Assembly (NCBI GenBank): GCA_022600535.1
Contig: JAHZKE010000012.1
Span: forward strand, 1-35,535
DNA from: Pseudomonadota bacterium
GTDB lineage: Bacteria > Pseudomonadota > Gammaproteobacteria > Tethybacterales > Persebacteraceae
Length of the DNA stretch: 35,535 nt
Direction of reading: 5' to 3'
The notes under the pieces are model-generated. The model was not told where the DNA came from, ran no database searches, and saw only the letters and a program-made list of their open reading frames with translations. Below, piece by piece: positions 965-16,500 of the stretch. The position numbers and the translations under genes were made by a program. How positions within the stretch are numbered: position 1 is the first letter of the stretch; each line of letters begins with the position of its first letter.

Positions 965-2248
965 ATGACGACAACTTGGACATTTGAACCTTCCTATTAC
1001 GAAGCATCGGTCACGCGCCCACCGCTCACTGATGCATTAGCAGGAGATGTTGATGCTGATATTTGTGTGATTGGCGGCGGTTTTACTGGCGTTTCCAGCG
1101 CATTAACATTAGCCCAACGCGGGCGTAAAGTTGTCTTATTAGAATCGCGGGCAATTGGTTGGGGCGCTTCGGGTAGAAACGGCGGACAGATGATTCACGA
1201 TTTTGCCACGGACGATTTAACCGCGGTCGCACGGAGTGGTGGTGTGAGCGAAAAACAGTTGTTTGACTTATCGTTAGAAGCATTAGAATTAGTTGAGCAA
1301 AACATTACCGAACACAATATTGCTTGCGATTTCCAACGCGGTTACGCCGAAGCGGCGGTCAAGCCGGCGCATTTACGCGACTTGCAAGAATGGGCAGAAA
1401 TAGTTGAGCGTGATTATCATTATTCGGGCAATACTGTTTTAGATGCGGTGGGTTTTCGTGAAGTCGTTGCCAGTCGTGCTTATTGCGGAGGTTTGCTCAA
1501 CGATAGAAGTGGCCATTTACATCCGCTCAAATATGTTTTGGGGCTTGCCGCTGCCGCCAAAGCCGCCGGTGTTGCTGTTTATGAAAACACGTCCGCCTTG
1601 CGGATTGACGAAGGCAAAGACGGGGTTACCGTACACACTGCCAACGGTCGTGTGCGCTGTCGTCGTTTATTAGTGGCGGGAAATGCTTATTTAGAAGGAT
1701 TGCAACTTCCAGTCGCGGGGCACATTATGCCTGTCGGTACCTATATCGGGGCAACCCATCCTTTAGGAGATGAAGCCGATAGTTTGATTCGCGATAATCG
1801 TGGCGTTTGTAATACTAATTTTGTTTTAGATTATTTTCGTCTTAGTGCCGACCAACGTCTCCTCTTTGGCGGGCGGGTTAGCTATTCAGGACGTACTCCC
1901 GCCAATTTAAACGCTTCCTTACGTGCACGCATGTTGTCGGTATTTCCGCAACTAGAACATGCGCAATTTGAATATTTATGGGGGGGGTATGTTGCCATTA
2001 CCATTAACCGTTTCCCCGATGTGGGACGCATTGGCGATTCCATTTATTACGCGCAAGGGTTTTCCGGACACGGCGTCGCCCTCAGTGGTTATTGCGGCAA
2101 ATTAATTGCCGAAGCCATCTGCGGCGAAGAAGAAAAATTTGCTATTTTTGACCGTGTCAAACACCATTCTTTCCCCGGCGGTAAATTATTACGCACGCCC
2201 TTATTGGTTTTGGCAATGCTTTATTATCGTTTGCGCGATTTAATTTAA
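965..2248 (+). CDS. FAD-dependent amine/amino-acid oxidase, PuuB/OrdL-like (DadA family)
   Basis: This 427-residue flavoprotein matches the length and layout of gamma-glutamylputrescine oxidase (PuuB, about 426 residues). The N-terminal dinucleotide-binding motif VIGGGFTGVSSALTL lies near residues 35-50, followed by GRNGGQMIHDF, typical of the DAO fold. The C-terminal FAD contact is YYAQGFSGHGVALSG. A GGAGA ribosome site at 956-960 supports the ATG at 965. The stop overlaps the next start by one base (TAATG), implying cotranslation. A run of eight G (1980-1987) encodes Trp-Gly-Gly. The family oxidises secondary or primary amines; the exact substrate is unknown, and none of the other puu genes is present. 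Confidence 0.85.
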   Translation: MTTTWTFEPSYYEASVTRPPLTDALAGDVDADICVIGGGFTGVSSALTLAQRGRKVVLLESRAIGWGASGRNGGQMIHDFATDDLTAVARSGGVSEKQLFDLSLEALELVEQNITEHNIACDFQRGYAEAAVKPAHLRDLQEWAEIVERDYHYSGNTVLDAVGFREVVASRAYCGGLLNDRSGHLHPLKYVLGLAAAAKAAGVAVYENTSALRIDEGKDGVTVHTANGRVRCRRLLVAGNAYLEGLQLPVAGHIMPVGTYIGATHPLGDEADSLIRDNRGVCNTNFVLDYFRLSADQRLLFGGRVSYSGRTPANLNASLRARMLSVFPQLEHAQFEYLWGGYVAITINRFPDVGRIGDSIYYAQGFSGHGVALSGYCGKLIAEAICGEEEKFAIFDRVKHHSFPGGKLLRTPLLVLAMLYYRLRDLI

Positions 2249-3330
2249 TGGCACATGACCTCGCTCTTGACCTCACGATTATCGGTGCCGGCGCAGTTGC
2301 CGCTGCCACGGCACTTGCCGCCGCGCATTATCGTGTTCCGTTTGTGCAATGGATGCCGGCAACACAACAACCCAACAGTGCGAAAAGCGGGGGGCGGCGT
2401 TATGCTTTGTCGCGCAGTAGCGTTGATTTTTTACAAACAATGGGAGTGGAATTTCCTACGCTGCCAGTAGAACAATTTATTTTACATGCCGGAAAACGCC
2501 CGTTGGTATTGCAAGAAAAAAATAAACCGCTCTGTTATATGGCAGCAGAAGAACACTTAACACAAGCATTAGAAAATGCATTGCAAAAAATAAACGCCCG
2601 CCGTTTTTCTTATCAAGAAATGCGTTACGAAAAAAGTGATGCCGATGCCGTGCAAATTTGTATTGATGGCACCGTGCAACGCAGTGCATTATTGGCAGTT
2701 GCTGACGGCGCGCGTTCACCATTGGCGACACAAATCGGAATTTTTAGCAGTGTGACCGATTTTCATCAACAAGCAGTCGTTGCCGATGTGTTGGCACCGC
2801 AACTGCCTGCCAATAGCGCGAGCCAGTGGTTTGCCGATAACGATATTGTTGCCTTGCTCCCGACAGGGGAGGGCGTTTTTTCTTTGGTTTGGTCAACTAC
2901 CGCCGCGGAGTCAACGCTAACCCCGGCAGAACTCACCACCGCTTTGTGCCGCCGCACCGGTCTTACTGACATTCGCATTACCTCGGCAATCCGCACTTTT
3001 CCGTTAGCTGCGGTGCGGCGTAGTGCCCGTGTCGCCCCGCGTATTGCGCTATTGGGCGATGCCGCCGCAGTCGTCCACCCCTTAGCCGGACAAGGGTTAA
3101 ATTTAGGGCTTGCCGATGCAAAAACTTTATTGCAATGCGTGCACCGGCGCATAGAGCGCAATCTTTCTCTCGGGTTGGCAGCGTATAGTCGCGCACGCAC
3201 GCAACGCAGTAATCAACTGCAACAACTGACACAATTTTTACTGCCGCAGCAGCGGCGCGTTGCCTGTTTATTGACTGCCGCCCGCCTGCCTTTAATGCGC
3301 CAACTGGCAATTGCCGGTGCAAATTATTAA
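2248..3330 (+). CDS. UbiH/UbiF/VisC-family FAD monooxygenase
   Basis: This 360-residue protein is a flavin hydroxylase of the type that adds hydroxyl groups to the ubiquinone ring. Features are the N-terminal FAD motif DLTIIGAGAVAAATAL, in which the third glycine of GxGxxG is Ala; the RRYALSRSSVDFLQ segment; the DG-type motif VADGARSP; and the family signature LLGDAAAVVHPLAGQGLNLGLAD. The last normally reads GDAAHxxHP, so one His is replaced by Ala. It is somewhat shorter than E. coli UbiH (about 390). Which ring position it acts on cannot be decided. It overlaps the upstream oxidase gene by one base, so it is probably translated from the same mRNA although the roles look unrelated. Confidence 0.8.
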   Translation: MAHDLALDLTIIGAGAVAAATALAAAHYRVPFVQWMPATQQPNSAKSGGRRYALSRSSVDFLQTMGVEFPTLPVEQFILHAGKRPLVLQEKNKPLCYMAAEEHLTQALENALQKINARRFSYQEMRYEKSDADAVQICIDGTVQRSALLAVADGARSPLATQIGIFSSVTDFHQQAVVADVLAPQLPANSASQWFADNDIVALLPTGEGVFSLVWSTTAAESTLTPAELTTALCRRTGLTDIRITSAIRTFPLAAVRRSARVAPRIALLGDAAAVVHPLAGQGLNLGLADAKTLLQCVHRRIERNLSLGLAAYSRARTQRSNQLQQLTQFLLPQQRRVACLLTAARLPLMRQLAIAGANY

Positions 3331-3358: not shown

Positions 3359-3376
3359 TGCTAAAATTTCCTTTAT
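3359..3376 (+). promoter_or_regulatory. Extended -10 promoter abutting the rnr start
   Basis: The extended -10 sequence TGCTAAAAT ends at 3367, nine bases before the ATG at 3377. With normal spacing transcription would begin around 3374, giving almost no leader. No Shine-Dalgarno sequence is present. No clear -35 is seen, as is usual for extended -10 promoters. An in-frame TAA at 3362 lies inside the box, so translation cannot begin further upstream. Confidence 0.5.
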
Positions 3377-4849
3377 ATGTATAACAGCCTTGTAGACGCG
3401 GTCGTGGCGGAGCGTGATTTTTTAACTGATTTTTCTCATGAGGAAGAAACAGAAGCAGCAAAAATAGCTGCATTGCCCCTTGATAGTTCTGCTTGTGTTG
3501 ATTGTCGCGAACAAGAATTTATTACCATTGACGGCGCCGATGCGCATGACTTTGACGATGCCGTCAGTTGTCGCCGCCAAGACGACAACATACTGCTCAC
3601 CGTCGCAATCGCCGATGTTTCCAGTTACGTCTTGCCGAATACGCCCTTAGATCGCGCCGCCCAAGCACGCGGCAATTCAATCTACTTGCCCGACCGTGTC
3701 ATCCCGATGTTACCGACCGTACTCTCTAACGGCATTTGTTCGCTACGCCCCTTAGAAGAACGTTTGTGTTTGTGTTGCGAGATGGAAATTGATGCCGAGG
3801 GGGTCAGCCAGCGTTATCGTTTTTTTCGCGCACTGATTTGCTCTAAAGCACGGATGAACTACGACGGTGCCGCCGCCATTATGCACGGCGATGTCGCCAG
3901 CGAATTTACCACCCCTGCTGTTTTGTGGGAGTTAGCGCAAATTTTACGCCGCCAGCGGCAGAGGCGCGGTGGTATGTTATTAGAACGCCCCGAAGCATAT
4001 TGCACCATTAGTGCCGATGGCGAATTGCACACCGGTTTTAGAGCGCGCGATATTGCCCACTATGCAATAGAAGAAGCAATGATTATGGCGAATCGTTGCG
4101 CTGCCGATTTTTTGATTCAACGCCGGCGCCCGACATTACACCGCACCCATGCCAGACCCTCAGCACTGAAAGTGCAACTATTAGCAGAAACCTTATCCCC
4201 GTTGGGGATTTCAATACCGAATCATCCGGCAGCTGCCGATTTTGCAACAGTGTTAGAAGCCGCCGAAGCGCGTGATGCCGCCTTATCCAACGCACTTACC
4301 CCGATGGTATTAGGAACATTAGCGCGTGCCGAATATAGCCCGAATGAAACCACCGGGCATTTTGGTTTAGCGTGCAAGCGTTATACGCACTTTACTTCAC
4401 CAATACGTCGCTACCCCGATTTATTAACCCACCGCGCCATTATCGCCGCGATGAGCGGTGCGCCCTCGCCCTTGGGACAGGAAGACCTCGTACAACTCGG
4501 CGCGCATTGCGGTGCAACCGAAGTCAAAGCCGATAAAGCAGGTTGGGATAGCCGCCAACGTTTATTGTGTGTCGGTGCGCAAAAAATGATTAATTGCGAA
4601 TACGAAGGATATGTTTCCGGCGTGACCCCCGCCGGATTTTTTGTTACCGTCGGCGATTTAGGAATAGACGGCATGGTGCGTTTCTCTTCCTTAGCGGGTT
4701 ATTGGGGTTGCAATGTGCAAAAAAGAATCATCACCGCGCCGGATAAAAAAACCATCATACGCGTTTCCGATAAAATTAATGTGCGCTTGGTTTCAGTAGT
4801 GCCGGAAAAAGGACGAGTCGATTTTATTGCCAGCGACTATGCGAAGTAA
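3377..4849 (+). CDS. rnr: RNase R/II-family 3'-5' exoribonuclease, short form lacking N-terminal domains
   Basis: This is a processive 3'-5' exoribonuclease of the RNB family. The catalytic motif IDGADAHDFDDAV lies at residues 51-63, with the four Mg-binding aspartates D52, D58, D60 and D61. HFTSPIRRYPDL, which carries the conserved active-site Arg, follows, and an S1 domain forms the C-terminus (EGYVSGVTPAGFFV). It aligns in mind with E. coli RNase R from just before the RNB domain to the end of S1. At 490 residues it therefore lacks roughly the first 220 (helix-turn-helix and both cold-shock domains) and the basic tail of the 813-residue enzyme. An in-frame stop at 3362 rules out a longer N-terminus. 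rlmB follows with overlap, as in the classical rnr-rlmB operon, which supports RNase R rather than RNase II. Confidence 0.85.
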   Translation: MYNSLVDAVVAERDFLTDFSHEEETEAAKIAALPLDSSACVDCREQEFITIDGADAHDFDDAVSCRRQDDNILLTVAIADVSSYVLPNTPLDRAAQARGNSIYLPDRVIPMLPTVLSNGICSLRPLEERLCLCCEMEIDAEGVSQRYRFFRALICSKARMNYDGAAAIMHGDVASEFTTPAVLWELAQILRRQRQRRGGMLLERPEAYCTISADGELHTGFRARDIAHYAIEEAMIMANRCAADFLIQRRRPTLHRTHARPSALKVQLLAETLSPLGISIPNHPAAADFATVLEAAEARDAALSNALTPMVLGTLARAEYSPNETTGHFGLACKRYTHFTSPIRRYPDLLTHRAIIAAMSGAPSPLGQEDLVQLGAHCGATEVKADKAGWDSRQRLLCVGAQKMINCEYEGYVSGVTPAGFFVTVGDLGIDGMVRFSSLAGYWGCNVQKRIITAPDKKTIIRVSDKINVRLVSVVPEKGRVDFIASDYAK

Positions 4850-5606
4850 GAAACAAGGACAAACACGTCATCCCGCCGCCAAAGACAACAGCGACAACAA
4901 CATTTATGTGTGTGGCATTCATGCAGTTGCGGCACTGTTACAACAACAGCGCGTCAATCATTTATATATCAGCGACAATAGCGGGGCATCCCTACAATCG
5001 TTGATAGACGAAGCCACGGCAACAGCAGTGCCGATGACACGCGAATCGCGGCAAGCACTCAGTATGCGCGTGCAAGAAGAACATCATCAAGGCGTTGTCG
5101 CCAAAGCATTATTGCCGGTGGGCGATATGGAAAGCATATTGGCAAGCGGAGCGCCGTTAGTGGTGTTAGACGGCGTAACCGACCCGCGTAATTTAGGCGC
5201 AATTATGCGCGTTACCCGCGCATTCGCCGCCGCCGCCGTCATTTTACCGGCACGGCGCAGTGCCCCCTTGTCTGTTGCCGCGATGCGTGCCGCCGCCGGT
5301 GCCGTGGCGGAAATCCCCTTATTGCGCGTGACCAACATTGCGCGCACCTTGCGCCAAGTCGATGCCGCCGGATATACCATTGTCGCGGCAGTAGAAGACG
5401 GTAGCGATACCTTATTTAGCGAAATTTTCCCGCAAAACACCTGTTGGGTGTTGGGAGATGAAGGCGTTGGCATACGGCGTTTAGTGCGCGAACACTGCCA
5501 CTTACATATCCGCATTCCCACCATCGCCGGCGAAGGCGGTTGCTTAAACGTCGCCAGCGCCTGCGCAGTTTGTCTATCTGCAGGGAGAAGCGCGTTGCGC
5601 GAGTAA
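4839..5606 (+). CDS. rlmB: 23S rRNA (guanosine-2'-O)-methyltransferase RlmB (SpoU family)
   Basis: RlmB methylates the ribose of G2251 in the 23S rRNA peptidyl-transferase region. The N-terminal substrate-binding part begins with YVCGIHAVAALLQQQ. The three SPOUT knot motifs are present: DPRNLGAIMRVTRAF, WVLGDEGVGIRRLV and a C-terminal motif around GGCLNVASACAVCL. In E. coli the last reads SLNVSVATG, so it diverges slightly here. The first in-frame TTG is at 4827, but the ATG at 4839 is preferred; it overlaps the end of rnr by 11 bases, indicating translational coupling. About 255 residues, close to the family norm of about 243-250. Confidence 0.9.
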   Translation: MRSKKQGQTRHPAAKDNSDNNIYVCGIHAVAALLQQQRVNHLYISDNSGASLQSLIDEATATAVPMTRESRQALSMRVQEEHHQGVVAKALLPVGDMESILASGAPLVVLDGVTDPRNLGAIMRVTRAFAAAAVILPARRSAPLSVAAMRAAAGAVAEIPLLRVTNIARTLRQVDAAGYTIVAAVEDGSDTLFSEIFPQNTCWVLGDEGVGIRRLVREHCHLHIRIPTIAGEGGCLNVASACAVCLSAGRSALRE

Positions 5607-12442: not shown

Positions 12443-14177
12443 TCGTTTTGTATTGACCGGACGTTACCTGCGTAGCGTACTGCATTATTGGCAGGCGTTT
12501 AGCGTGATGTTATTGTGCATGGTGTTGACGGGTTTATTGCAACCGCTGTTGCCGTGGATGTTAGCGCCCTTATTAGATTCCGCCACTGATAAGAAAGAAT
12601 TTTTATTTTCACCGCAGTGGTTGCCGTTGTTGATGTTAGCGGTGATTGTACTCTTAGGGGCATTCTCTTATGGGCGCTCTTATTTAGGCGGTTGGTTAGA
12701 TGCCACCTTGCAGCGCGATTATCGCGTTAAGATGAGCAAGCAGTTATTGCAACTCCCCGTAAGCCACCTACAGCGTGATTCTTCCGGTTTGTTGACCTCT
12801 CGCTTTATGTTATTTTTGCCGCAACTGACAGGGGCAACTATGCCCGTGTGCATGGCATTGGTACAAGAAACAATCAAAGCCATCGGTTATATTGCATTAA
12901 TGTTTTATTGGCAGTGGCAACTGACATTAATTGTATTGTTAGTCGCTCCGCTCGGGGCGGGGATTATTCGTATTTTAGGGCGGCGCATGAAAATCGTTGC
13001 CGGTAAAGCGCAACAAGCAACTGCCGCCGGACAAAGCTGTTTGAATGAAGTCATCCACGCAACACCGGTCGTTAAAATGGCGGGCGAATCCGCAGCAGTG
13101 CAACGCTTAAGAGGAGTGTTTTCTTCTCTGCGCGGTAGTATTATTCGCACGCATGTTATTTTATCTGCCGGACAACCATTGACTCATATTTTAATCGCCT
13201 TCCCATTTGCAGTAGTCATTAGTTATATGGTGCAAGAGTTAGCCGCCGGTAACATTAGCGCCGGTGAAGCTGCTTCTTTTTTGACCATTATGTTATTGTT
13301 GCCAACACCGATACGCATTATCACGCGGGCGATGAATACATGGGAACAAATGTTAGTTGCGGCACGTGAAGTTTATGGATTTTTAGATGCCACCCCGGAA
13401 GTAGACGAAGGCACAGTGACCTGTACACAGACACGCGGGCAAATTGATTTTCAACAGGTTACCTTTCAATACCCCAATAGCGAAGCCCCAGTATTGCAAG
13501 ATTTATCGCTTTCTATTCGTGCCGGTGAAACAGTGGCATTAGTCGGGCGTTCTGGTGCCGGCAAAACGACATTGTGCAATTTATTACCGCGTTTTTATTT
13601 GCCCGCGCAGGGGCAGGTGTTGTTAGATGGTCGTGAAATTAGTCAATATACTTTGGCTTCTTTGCGACAACAAATTGCCCTTGTCACGCAAAAACCCCTG
13701 CTCTTTGACGATACCGTGGCGATGAATGTGGCATTTCCAGATACTCCCTCCGGCACACAACAACAAGAACGCTTAATGCAGGCATTACAAAACGCCGCCG
13801 CCGATGATTTTGTTGCCGCATTACCGCAGGGAGTAGATACGCGCGTTGGCGAAAATGGCTCTTTATTGTCAGGCGGGCAGCAACAGCGATTAATGTTAGC
13901 GCGGGCATTTTATCGCGATGCACCGATTGTTATTTTAGACGAAGCGACATCGGCATTAGATAGCGACACAGAAAGCAAAATTAAAACCGCAATGCAACGC
14001 TTGCTTGTCGGACGCACTGCGATTATCATCGCGCACCGTTTCACCACCATTAATTTTGCCGACCGCATTGCAGTATTAGATCAAGGCAAATTACTGGCAA
14101 TTGGTACGGTAGAAGAACTACGACAAACCTGCCCATTATTTGCCGAACTCTACAACGCACAAAAATTAGTAGAATAA
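12432..14177 (+). CDS. msbA: Lipid A export ABC transporter MsbA-type (permease-ATPase fusion)
   Basis: This 581-residue half transporter is the length of MsbA (582). An N-terminal six-helix membrane domain (about residues 15-310) is followed by the ATPase domain: Walker A GRSGAGKTT near 371, signature LSGGQQQR near 479, Walker B IVILDEATSALD near 500, and switch His in IIAHR. MsbA flips lipid A-core across the inner membrane. The position next to an ELM1 putative glycosyltransferase, and near gmd and a fucosyltransferase, fits an envelope role. Other lipid-linked or drug exporters of the same subfamily cannot be excluded. Its ATG lies inside the end of the upstream gene. Confidence 0.87.
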   Translation: MKNDRFVLTGRYLRSVLHYWQAFSVMLLCMVLTGLLQPLLPWMLAPLLDSATDKKEFLFSPQWLPLLMLAVIVLLGAFSYGRSYLGGWLDATLQRDYRVKMSKQLLQLPVSHLQRDSSGLLTSRFMLFLPQLTGATMPVCMALVQETIKAIGYIALMFYWQWQLTLIVLLVAPLGAGIIRILGRRMKIVAGKAQQATAAGQSCLNEVIHATPVVKMAGESAAVQRLRGVFSSLRGSIIRTHVILSAGQPLTHILIAFPFAVVISYMVQELAAGNISAGEAASFLTIMLLLPTPIRIITRAMNTWEQMLVAAREVYGFLDATPEVDEGTVTCTQTRGQIDFQQVTFQYPNSEAPVLQDLSLSIRAGETVALVGRSGAGKTTLCNLLPRFYLPAQGQVLLDGREISQYTLASLRQQIALVTQKPLLFDDTVAMNVAFPDTPSGTQQQERLMQALQNAAADDFVAALPQGVDTRVGENGSLLSGGQQQRLMLARAFYRDAPIVILDEATSALDSDTESKIKTAMQRLLVGRTAIIIAHRFTTINFADRIAVLDQGKLLAIGTVEELRQTCPLFAELYNAQKLVE

Positions 14178-14263
14178 AAAGTGTGTTCTACGTGCAGGTA
14201 GCTATAGCGAAAATGCAAAACAAAATAAAACGTAAATTTAAACCACAAAGCTAGTGCGGACTA

Positions 14264-14324
14264 TTTAAATTCCCCTCCGCCGGAGAGGTGGCGTGTTGAG
14301 CGAAGCGAAACATGACGAGGTGGT
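14264..14324 (+). repeat. REP-like hairpin repeat, copy 2 (longest)
   Basis: The element begins TTAAATTCCCCTCC, with GGAG closing a short hairpin. GTGGCGTGTT then pairs with AACATGAC around a GC-GAA-GC core, and it ends in GAGGTGGT. The remaining part of the 213-bp gap 14178-14390 between two convergent genes shows nothing else recognisable. Confidence 0.6.
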
Positions 14325-14390
14325 CTTGATGGGGCAATCATCATCGGCAGTTAGAGGTTCGCACAAAAAAACTTGCCGCGCTCTTTCATC

Positions 14391-15449
14391 TTATTGTTTG
14401 TTACTCATTGTCTTATTTTTATACAACGATTTAAATTTTTGGTGGTAATACAATTTTTCTGAAAGATAGCGTATTGCTTTGATGGGAGACCTTGCAATCA
14501 ATGTTCTTCGGCTATAAATAATATCGGCGCGTGCACTGTTCTCTGTTTGCAACGAAGAGGGCTGTGTATTAATAAAACGGGCAACAACTGAAAAAAAATT
14601 ATGTTCTTCTAAAACACGTCGCCGAGCTTCTATAATGGCGGGTAATCTTTTTTGATAAGAGTCGTTGCTGATTGCTTCTTGAATAATATGTGCTGTTTTT
14701 TCTACATCATTAATATCAATTTCAATCAAACTATCTGCTGGAAAATATTCGGTCGCATTGGGGCAACCATAATAAAAAGGCAGACAATACGCCAAAAAAG
14801 AATCTGCTAATTTTTCCGTCCAATAATGCGGACATACATGGTTTTCTACTGCAAGATGATAACGATAAGAATCCATTGCTTCACTTTTGTCTTTAAGGGG
14901 ATGCACGCCGTGCCCAAACCAATCTAGTGCAGGTAATAATTGACTCAATTTTTTCGTAAATTGATAGCGTTGGTTATGTAAGGTGTGCGTTTGTTGTTTT
15001 GTTGAGCATATTGTAGAAAGCGTGGCTGTTTTTTCCAGTGGAGGTACTTTCTTTAACGCATCATACGAATAATCTGCTTCTAAATTCATGCCATAGTACC
15101 AAGACGAGGCAGGGTGCATGGGGATTTTTTGTTGATGCCGTAGCACCCAATCTTCATGGCAAGTTAGTACGAATGCAAATTGCTTAGTAAAATCGCTACC
15201 GTATATTTTAACTGCTGACGGTTCATACGTAATTAATATGGTATTTTCTTTTGGGCAAGCAAGTTTTTCTTCACTAAATTTAGAGGATTGGTGGGCTTTT
15301 ACGTCATCATAAACAACAAGCCAATCGTAATTAGAGGCAGTGCGGTCTAATGTAAAACGAACATTTCCCCAACATCCCGATTTTGGTAATTGGCGGAATA
15401 AATTTCCTTTTACCCCAATGATTTTAACCAAGGGCGAATACTCATCCAT
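14391..15449 (-). CDS. Family GT10 (alpha-1,3/1,4) fucosyltransferase
   Basis: This 352-residue protein belongs to glycosyltransferase family 10, which transfers fucose from GDP-fucose to GlcNAc or Glc of surface glycans. The diagnostic C-terminal block is [20 protein letters not shown] followed by [14 protein letters not shown], corresponding to the donor-binding FxxxFENS...TEK region of known enzymes. No signal peptide or membrane helix is seen. The frame extends into gmd, but the ATG at 15449 overlaps the gmd stop by eight bases and gives the normal family length. A T8 run on the coding strand (14591-14598) encodes Phe-Phe. It is probably expressed with gmd, which makes its donor precursor. 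Confidence 0.85.
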
Positions 15450-16500
15450 TCTGTTTATTTTCTTTTTCCGCCGCAATATCTGCTTGCACCATTTCTGTAA
15501 CCAACGCATTAAACTGTACAGTCGCTTCCCAGCCCAGTATTGTTTTTGCTTTTGTTGCATCGCCTTGCAGAGAATCAACTTCGGTTGGGCGAAAATAACG
15601 CGGGTCTATTTTAATGCGTACCTTGCCGTTAGCATCATCAATTCCCACTTCATCAATGCCCGTCCCCTGCCAACAAATAGAGATTCCTATCTCGGCAAAA
15701 GCCGCATTCACAAAATCGCGCACCGAATAATTTTTTCCTGTCGCGAGTACAAAATCATCGGCGTGATCATGTTGCAAAATGCGCCACATTCCTTCAACAT
15801 AATCTTTTGCATGTCCCCAGTCGCGGCGTGCATCTAAATTACCAAGGTACAGTGTTTCTTGCAACCCAAGATGAATATGGGCAACGGCGCGGCTGATTTT
15901 ACGTGACACAAATGTCTCGCCACGCCGCGGGCTTTCGTGGTTAAATAAAATCCCATTTGCCGCAAACAAGCCATACGCTTGGCGGTAGTTAACGGTAATC
16001 CAATACGCATATAATTTTGCCGCCGCATAAGGGCTCGCGGGTAAAAACGGCGTGTGTTCATTTTGCGGCGGTGGCGCACTGCCATATAGTTCAGAAGTAG
16101 ACGCCTGATAAAAACGTGTTTTTTCTTCTAAGTGCAATATCCGCAACGCTTCCAACAAGCGCAGTGTTCCTAAGGCATCTGCATTGGCAGTATATTCAGG
16201 AGTTTCAAAACTAACTTGCACATGACTCTGTGCCGCAAGATTATAAATTTCATCGGGCTGTATTTGTTGCACCAAACGGATGAGATTAGTCGCATCAGTC
16301 ATATCCCCATAGTGCATAAAAAAGCGCGAGTCGTTATTTTCGTGCGGGTCTTGATACAAATGATCAACACGGGTCGTATTAAAACTGGAAGCGCGCCGTT
16401 TAATGCCATGCACAATATACCCTTTGGCAAGTAATAATTCTGCCAAGTAGGCACCGTCCTGTCCGGTGCAACCGGTAATTAATGCAATGCGATTAGTCAT
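15442..16500 (-). CDS. gmd: GDP-mannose 4,6-dehydratase
   Basis: Gmd converts GDP-mannose to GDP-4-keto-6-deoxymannose, the first step to GDP-fucose. It is an extended short-chain dehydrogenase. The NADP-binding motif [16 protein letters not shown] is at the N-terminus, then KRRASSFNT and RVDHLYQDP. The catalytic region is STSELYG with the YAAAK (Tyr-x3-Lys) pair. At 352 residues it has normal length. The ATG at 16500 is preferred over one nine codons upstream because homology starts there and a -10 box lies eight bases before it. The second enzyme, GDP-fucose synthase (Fcl/WcaG), is not in the window. Confidence 0.93.

Follow-up and report, generated by a model that had tools for sequence, protein, structure and literature searches.

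We found that the gene at positions 3377-4849 (+) of the window, i.e., the whole 35,535-nucleotide stretch of DNA analyzed, encodes a short form of RNase R of 490 amino acids. As indicated by the open reading frame, Pfam and NCBIfam matches, the AlphaFold2 model and fold matches, the protein has the RNB domain with its catalytic aspartates and the S1 domain of an RNB exoribonuclease, and lacks the helix-turn-helix (HTH), the two cold-shock domains (CSD1 and CSD2) and the Lys/Arg-rich C-terminal tail. The observation of a naturally trimmed RNase R, with which the original prediction began, is thus confirmed. We consider it probable that the protein is an RNase R by descent, that HTH, CSD1, CSD2 and the Lys/Arg-rich tail had already disappeared in an ancestor from which the order descends, and that what remains is a compact RNB-S1 enzyme with a predicted 3′–5′ exonuclease activity, its domain loss having been tolerated during genome reduction. 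The trimming appears to reflect such tolerance in shrinking genomes and does not seem to point to a new function.

The reading frame of rnr starts with an ATG and is preceded, 15 bases before this codon, by a TAA in the same frame (positions 3362-3364, +), as had been stated for position 3362 in the original prediction; the open frame measures 494 codons. The unrelated neighbor on the 5′ side, a gene for a UbiH-family hydroxylase (2248-3330, +; ORF, Pfam, NCBIfam), ends only 46 bp ahead of rnr. Since the frame is closed by the TAA and the upstream gene ends at 3330, there is no space for an HTH and two CSDs. Pfam searches of the 490-aa protein gave RNB (PF00773, residues 42-359, 301 bits; positions 3500-4453, +, with the corresponding genome match C116:3500-4453) and S1 (PF00575, residues 408-483; positions 4598-4825, +), no other domain, and none ahead of RNB. 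The S1 match is weak (25.2 bits, cut-off 22); the S1 fold was well modelled by AlphaFold2. Alignment to the NCBIfam RNase R profile TIGR02063 begins at profile position 211 of 711, and its score of 450.9 bits lies under the cut-off for full-length equivalogs (597.85). The RNase II model TIGR02062 reached 171 bits vs. 451 bits for RNase R, which is thus the nearest of the RNB families, and the best solved relative by sequence was E. coli RNase R (5xgu). The catalytic motif IDGADAHDFDDAV starts at residue 51. All four catalytic aspartates, D52, D58, D60 and D61 (3530-3559, +), are present, so that their retention, predicted together with that of S1, was verified by alignment and Pfam. Counted in the alignment to E. 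coli RNase R, these residues and Y103 correspond to D272, D278, D280, D281 and Y324 (E. coli numbers of D272, D278, D280 and Y324 as given in the accessible part of PMC10579198). From the motif start to the end the protein has 440 residues, and it stops 7 residues past S1.

The AlphaFold2 model of the window protein, based on an alignment (A3) of this protein with pieces from 57 of 80 named full-length loci, had a mean pLDDT of 92.9 and a pTM of 0.90. In the model, the first 39 residues (3377-3493, +) form two helices (residues 2-12 and 21-32; block pLDDT 90-97), which by structural alignment are the linker that follows CSD2 in full-length enzymes. The top Foldseek match, with a TM of 0.91 on the query, was E. 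coli RNase R, and VIA-align gave a Z of 51 over 482 residues with B. subtilis RNase R (8cdu). In the VIA-align alignments, the model is matched to 8cdu from its residue 3, opposite residue 209, and its first aligned residue lies opposite residue 223 in Mycoplasma RNase R; for E. coli RNase II (2ix1), model residue 1 is paired with residue 156. These positions indicate that the window protein begins in the linker after CSD2; in our reading of the domain order in the available parts of PMC12320835 and PMC10023572, the start point is the CSD2/RNB hinge region.

The order is represented in the collection by five genomes (the window's genome, G000, and G001, G002, G003 and G004). Complete rnr genes were present in G000, G002 and G004, and all three are short; their open frames measure 494, 485 and 498 codons, respectively. 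G002 and G004 belong to two other genera of the order and carry the same truncation, their proteins being 50% and 39% identical to that of the window. In G001 a contig ends within rnr and leaves only its S1 end, and the search of G003 (assembly 85% complete) gave no RNase R. A full-length gene in relatives had been named as a finding that would speak against the truncation; within the order none was found, and three of three complete genes are short. The 80 named relatives, obtained through their similarity to the short proteins, were without exception full length, with at least 204 open residues 5′ of residue 1 of the window protein.

Among the 369 genomes of the class draw, 342 had an RNase R match and 343 matched a profile (A5) of HTH, CSD1 and CSD2 built from 14 named relatives; genomes matching both were counted as full length on those matches. 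Comparison of the two tables revealed 13 RNase R-matched genomes in which the A5 match was absent or weak (E above 1e-10). These comprise nine short forms, namely the three of the order and six more (G010, G035, G043, G289, G285 and G179), as well as G029, G156, G097 and G137; G285 and G289 were not among the RNase R matches listed and were assigned to the remaining six of the 342. The nine short forms have open frames of 485-541 codons with RNB and S1 as their only Pfam domains, the S1 match of G010 (20.6 bits) lying below the cut-off of 22. Their genomes all measure 0.9-1.7 Mb and belong to the about 49 matched genomes (counted by hand) that do not exceed 1.7 Mb. The distance from the upstream stop to the catalytic motif is 52-62 codons in eight short forms and 93 in G179. 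None of the nine has a long basic tail, their ends lying 432-458 residues past the start of the motif. Six of 79 named full-length relatives (L097, without a strict motif, was left out of the 80) end within 460 residues of this point, so that tail loss by itself is not special. G156 was rejected as a short form, being a 302-codon piece, and so were G097 and G137, with 29% identity and frames of 554 and 1413 codons, which probably encode other RNB proteins. The 3.5-Mb genome G029 encodes a 640-aa RNase R (L139:2003-3925, +) whose front end was only weakly recognized (part of CSD2); it may stand midway in the loss of the N-terminus. A second, divergent RNB protein of 590 aa, with RNB as its sole Pfam domain, is encoded in the window's genome before an aroE-like gene (C113, L002:760-2532, +). 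A divergent RNB match was present in all five genomes of the order, and the search of the window's genome gave no RNB gene beyond rnr and this second one.

The gene directly after rnr in the window encodes an rlmB-like 23S rRNA 2′-O-methyltransferase (4827-5606, +; ORF, Pfam, NCBIfam), as expected for the rnr-rlmB position, and overlaps the 3′ end of rnr if its TTG start is used. As read from translations, rlmB is next to rnr in seven of eight short loci (G000, G004, G010, G035, G043, G285 and G179) and not in the inspected locus of G002, G289 being left out of this count. On the 5′ side, the neighbor is UbiH-like in the window, pilin-like in G002 and, in G004, an ORF whose translation looks like the last part of a succinate dehydrogenase/fumarate reductase flavoprotein. 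Two families of the order have a pilin-like gene in the neighborhood of rnr, in G002 5′ of rnr (L036:6725-7459, −) and in G004 beyond rlmB (L026:3-593, −), and these two genes have similar N-termini. Elsewhere in the window, positions 14001-16000 have a GC content of 0.41 vs. about 0.50 in the rest and include a 395-aa ORF (14391-15578, −), which is glycosyltransferase-like and lies beside a GDP-mannose dehydratase-like ORF (names from translations).

Published work on the domains of these enzymes, of which parts were available to us, suggests what the short form may do. The CSDs, which swing off at a duplex, are described as a first barrier and a surface for loading, and the tri-helix wedge of RNB together with S1 as the elements that open it (PMC12320835, PMC10023572). 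In the accessible part of PMC10023572, human Dis3L2 with deleted CSDs still degrades single strands processively, with fivefold better productive binding, and shows lower processivity at a duplex and more fall-off near it. The RNB domain alone, from E. coli or P. syringae RNase R, rescues a cold-sensitive P. syringae rnr mutant (PMC10579198, in part). According to passages of PMC12320835, B. subtilis RNase R is fixed at 16S helix 23 by its HTH, a domain on which the recruitment of HslUV or Lon also depends; to associate with the ribosome together with SmpB, RNase R requires its K/R tail. On the basis of these three papers, we infer that the window enzyme would be an active exonuclease without HTH- or tail-based targeting. 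It would digest RNA as other RNB enzymes do, with S1 and the RNB wedge region alone holding and opening the substrates, the CSD barrier and loading platform presumably being gone. S1 would be its sole RNA-binding domain, and substrates would be screened less. As CSD-deleted Dis3L2 is weaker at a duplex, equal performance of the short form on structured RNA is not assured. Because the HTH and the tail are absent, 30S anchoring, SmpB binding and feeding of HslUV or Lon, as in full-length RNase R, would not be expected. PNPase of the same genome probably takes part in bulk 3′–5′ decay. SmpB was found in all 18 genomes searched, which include short-form and comparison genomes, and PNPase likewise in 18 of 18 (above cut-off in 17); their retention suggests that trans-translation itself has probably not been lost. 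The predicted altered substrate selection or partner proteins can be kept in part: a changed choice of substrates or a loss of partner contacts may fairly be deduced from the domain-deletion papers, and new partners would be conjecture.

A different role of the trimming should be considered here. Loss of the front domains may itself have been selected, opening the channel to substrates otherwise screened out or freeing the enzyme from proteolysis, for RNase II-like or constitutive rRNA/tRNA work. Such a specialized enzyme, which we regard as unlikely, would be in line with the near-identical cut point of the nine short forms, with the presence of just one other and divergent RNB protein in the window's genome and with the fivefold better productive binding of Dis3L2 without CSDs (PMC10023572, in part). 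However, the cut point may merely mirror the domain boundary, and the confinement to small genomes and the faster evolution of the short forms fit a tolerated loss at least equally well.

This faster evolution was seen in comparisons with PNPase. For 36 pairs of short forms, the RNB/PNPase divergence ratio ranged from 1.19 to 2.01 (median 1.48), vs. a median of 1.19 for 10 pairs of comparison genomes and 1.05-1.20 for the six of these pairs without G029; the ratios are pairwise and the pairs non-independent. The raised ratio indicates that constraint on the short forms is changed or weaker, and it could reflect a changed role or a weakening constraint. Together with the long branches of several short forms, it might be taken to mean that short rnr is a decaying gene heading for loss. 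Yet the open frame and the checked catalytic residues are kept in nine of nine short forms from several families: no variation was seen at 12 conserved residues (the four aspartates, Y103, R344 and R345 among them) in these or in five of five comparison proteins. Differences between the window gene and that of G002 number 208, 155 and 320 at the first, second and third codon positions, respectively, in 482 codons, as expected for a protein under selection. Given this excess at third positions and the rnr-rlmB order kept in seven of the eight short loci inspected, we judge decay to be quite improbable.

The HTH/cold-shock part might also be encoded elsewhere and work in trans, as in a split gene, which we hold to be highly improbable. 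It is true that G002, a member of the order, has one free cold-shock protein recognized by PF00313, but no PF00313 match was found in the other four of the five genomes, including that of the window, so that the proposed check for a free cold-shock protein gene gave a negative answer. Profile A5 had no match in G000 or G004 and a weak one (5.4e-4) in G002. PF08206 gave nothing above cut-off in the five genomes of the order; its weak matches lie in a Rho-like protein in G000 (name from translation) and in a 78-codon cold-shock-protein frame in G002. A separate upstream ORF with the cold-shock domains, another finding that had been named as speaking against the truncation, was thus not found with either PF08206 or A5. 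With PF00313, the 14-sequence N-terminal profile and, above its cut-off, PF08206 all negative in G000, a trans-acting front half was rejected for this genome; at an assembly completeness of about 96%, there is a small chance that a piece is missing. Finally, there is next to no chance that short rnr is a sequencing or assembly artefact, an objection raised in advance to which the 116 contigs of the window's assembly lend some substance, as the same truncation recurs in two other genera of the order behind different 5′ genes, which excludes a common assembly error at the start, and in other families, including the one-contig genome G179.

We also asked how often the loss took place. An RNase R tree was built from 63 chosen rows, i.e., the nine short forms, G029 and 53 full-length proteins. 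In this tree the order's three proteins group with good support and the other short forms lie elsewhere, which makes three changes. When the nine short forms were held together, p-AU was 0.82 and the likelihood was better; as a single short clade has the higher likelihood, the RNase R tree cannot decide between one and several origins. Long branches may attract each other in this tree. Genomes of the window's class pair in it with Methylophaga and Stenotrophomonas, which places the source of the window among the gammaproteobacteria as GTDB defines them. In a PNPase tree of 16 of the genomes, one clade of short-form genomes was disfavored (p-AU 0.027), and at least two independent losses of the front domains are likely. 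G010 adjoins the window's order in the PNPase tree (85/86), so that G010 and the order may share a single loss. We put forward tentatively, as a possibility that falls somewhat short of an even chance, that several small-genome gammaproteobacterial lineages converged independently on an RNase R reduced to RNB and S1, about 480-520 residues long, which begins at the CSD2/RNB hinge and lacks the ribosome- and protease-targeting ends, with SmpB and PNPase kept. In these lineages RNase R would no longer be tied to trans-translation or to the turnover of 30S subunits, and natural selection would have kept the RNB-S1 core as the smallest unit.

So far, engineered deletions have been the main way to ask how far RNase R needs CSD and HTH for its work on structured RNA and ribosomes. 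The several lineages in which these domains are naturally and heritably missing provide compact enzymes for such tests, and the short forms predict which quality-control tasks small-genome bacteria have abandoned. In the literature searched (titles and starts of abstracts, mostly non-subscription) there was no description of an N-terminally trimmed RNase R in Gammaproteobacteria, and the RNase R passages of PMC4131195 contain nothing on N-terminal trimming. The reading as a minimal form was right about the intact active site and S1, and missed the tail loss, the sharing of the short form within the order and its recurrence in other small-genome families. The uniqueness that it implied does not hold, since RNB enzymes with minimal accessory domains, Haloferax volcanii RNase R and Deinococcus radiodurans RNase II, are already described in the accessible part of PMC12320835. 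The window form adds a variant to this known kind of minimal RNB enzyme; what makes it of interest is that it recurs and that it provides a natural test of the accessory domains.

Compared with RNase R of E. coli and B. subtilis, the window form agrees in the RNB core residues, in S1, in rlmB as the next gene and in being matched best by sequence and fold, and differs in its 490-aa size and in the absence of HTH, CSD1, CSD2 and the Lys/Arg-rich tail. E. coli RNase II (2ix1) has a similar RNB and S1 fold (Z 39.9) but contains two CSDs. D. radiodurans RNase II (2r7d) resembles the window form in being a natural RNB enzyme whose accessory domains are minimal (PMC12320835, in part), yet its fold match to the model (Z 39.7, 22% identity) is far below that of RNase R proper. 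H. volcanii RNase R is likewise a natural RNB enzyme, with rudimentary accessory domains; it is archaeal, consists mostly of the RNB domain and is likened here by its description only, as given in passages of PMC12320835. Judging from the parts available, the RNB-only RNase R of PMC10579198 and the CSD-deleted Dis3L2 of PMC10023572 are near-equivalents engineered in the laboratory, whereas the window form is natural and inherited.
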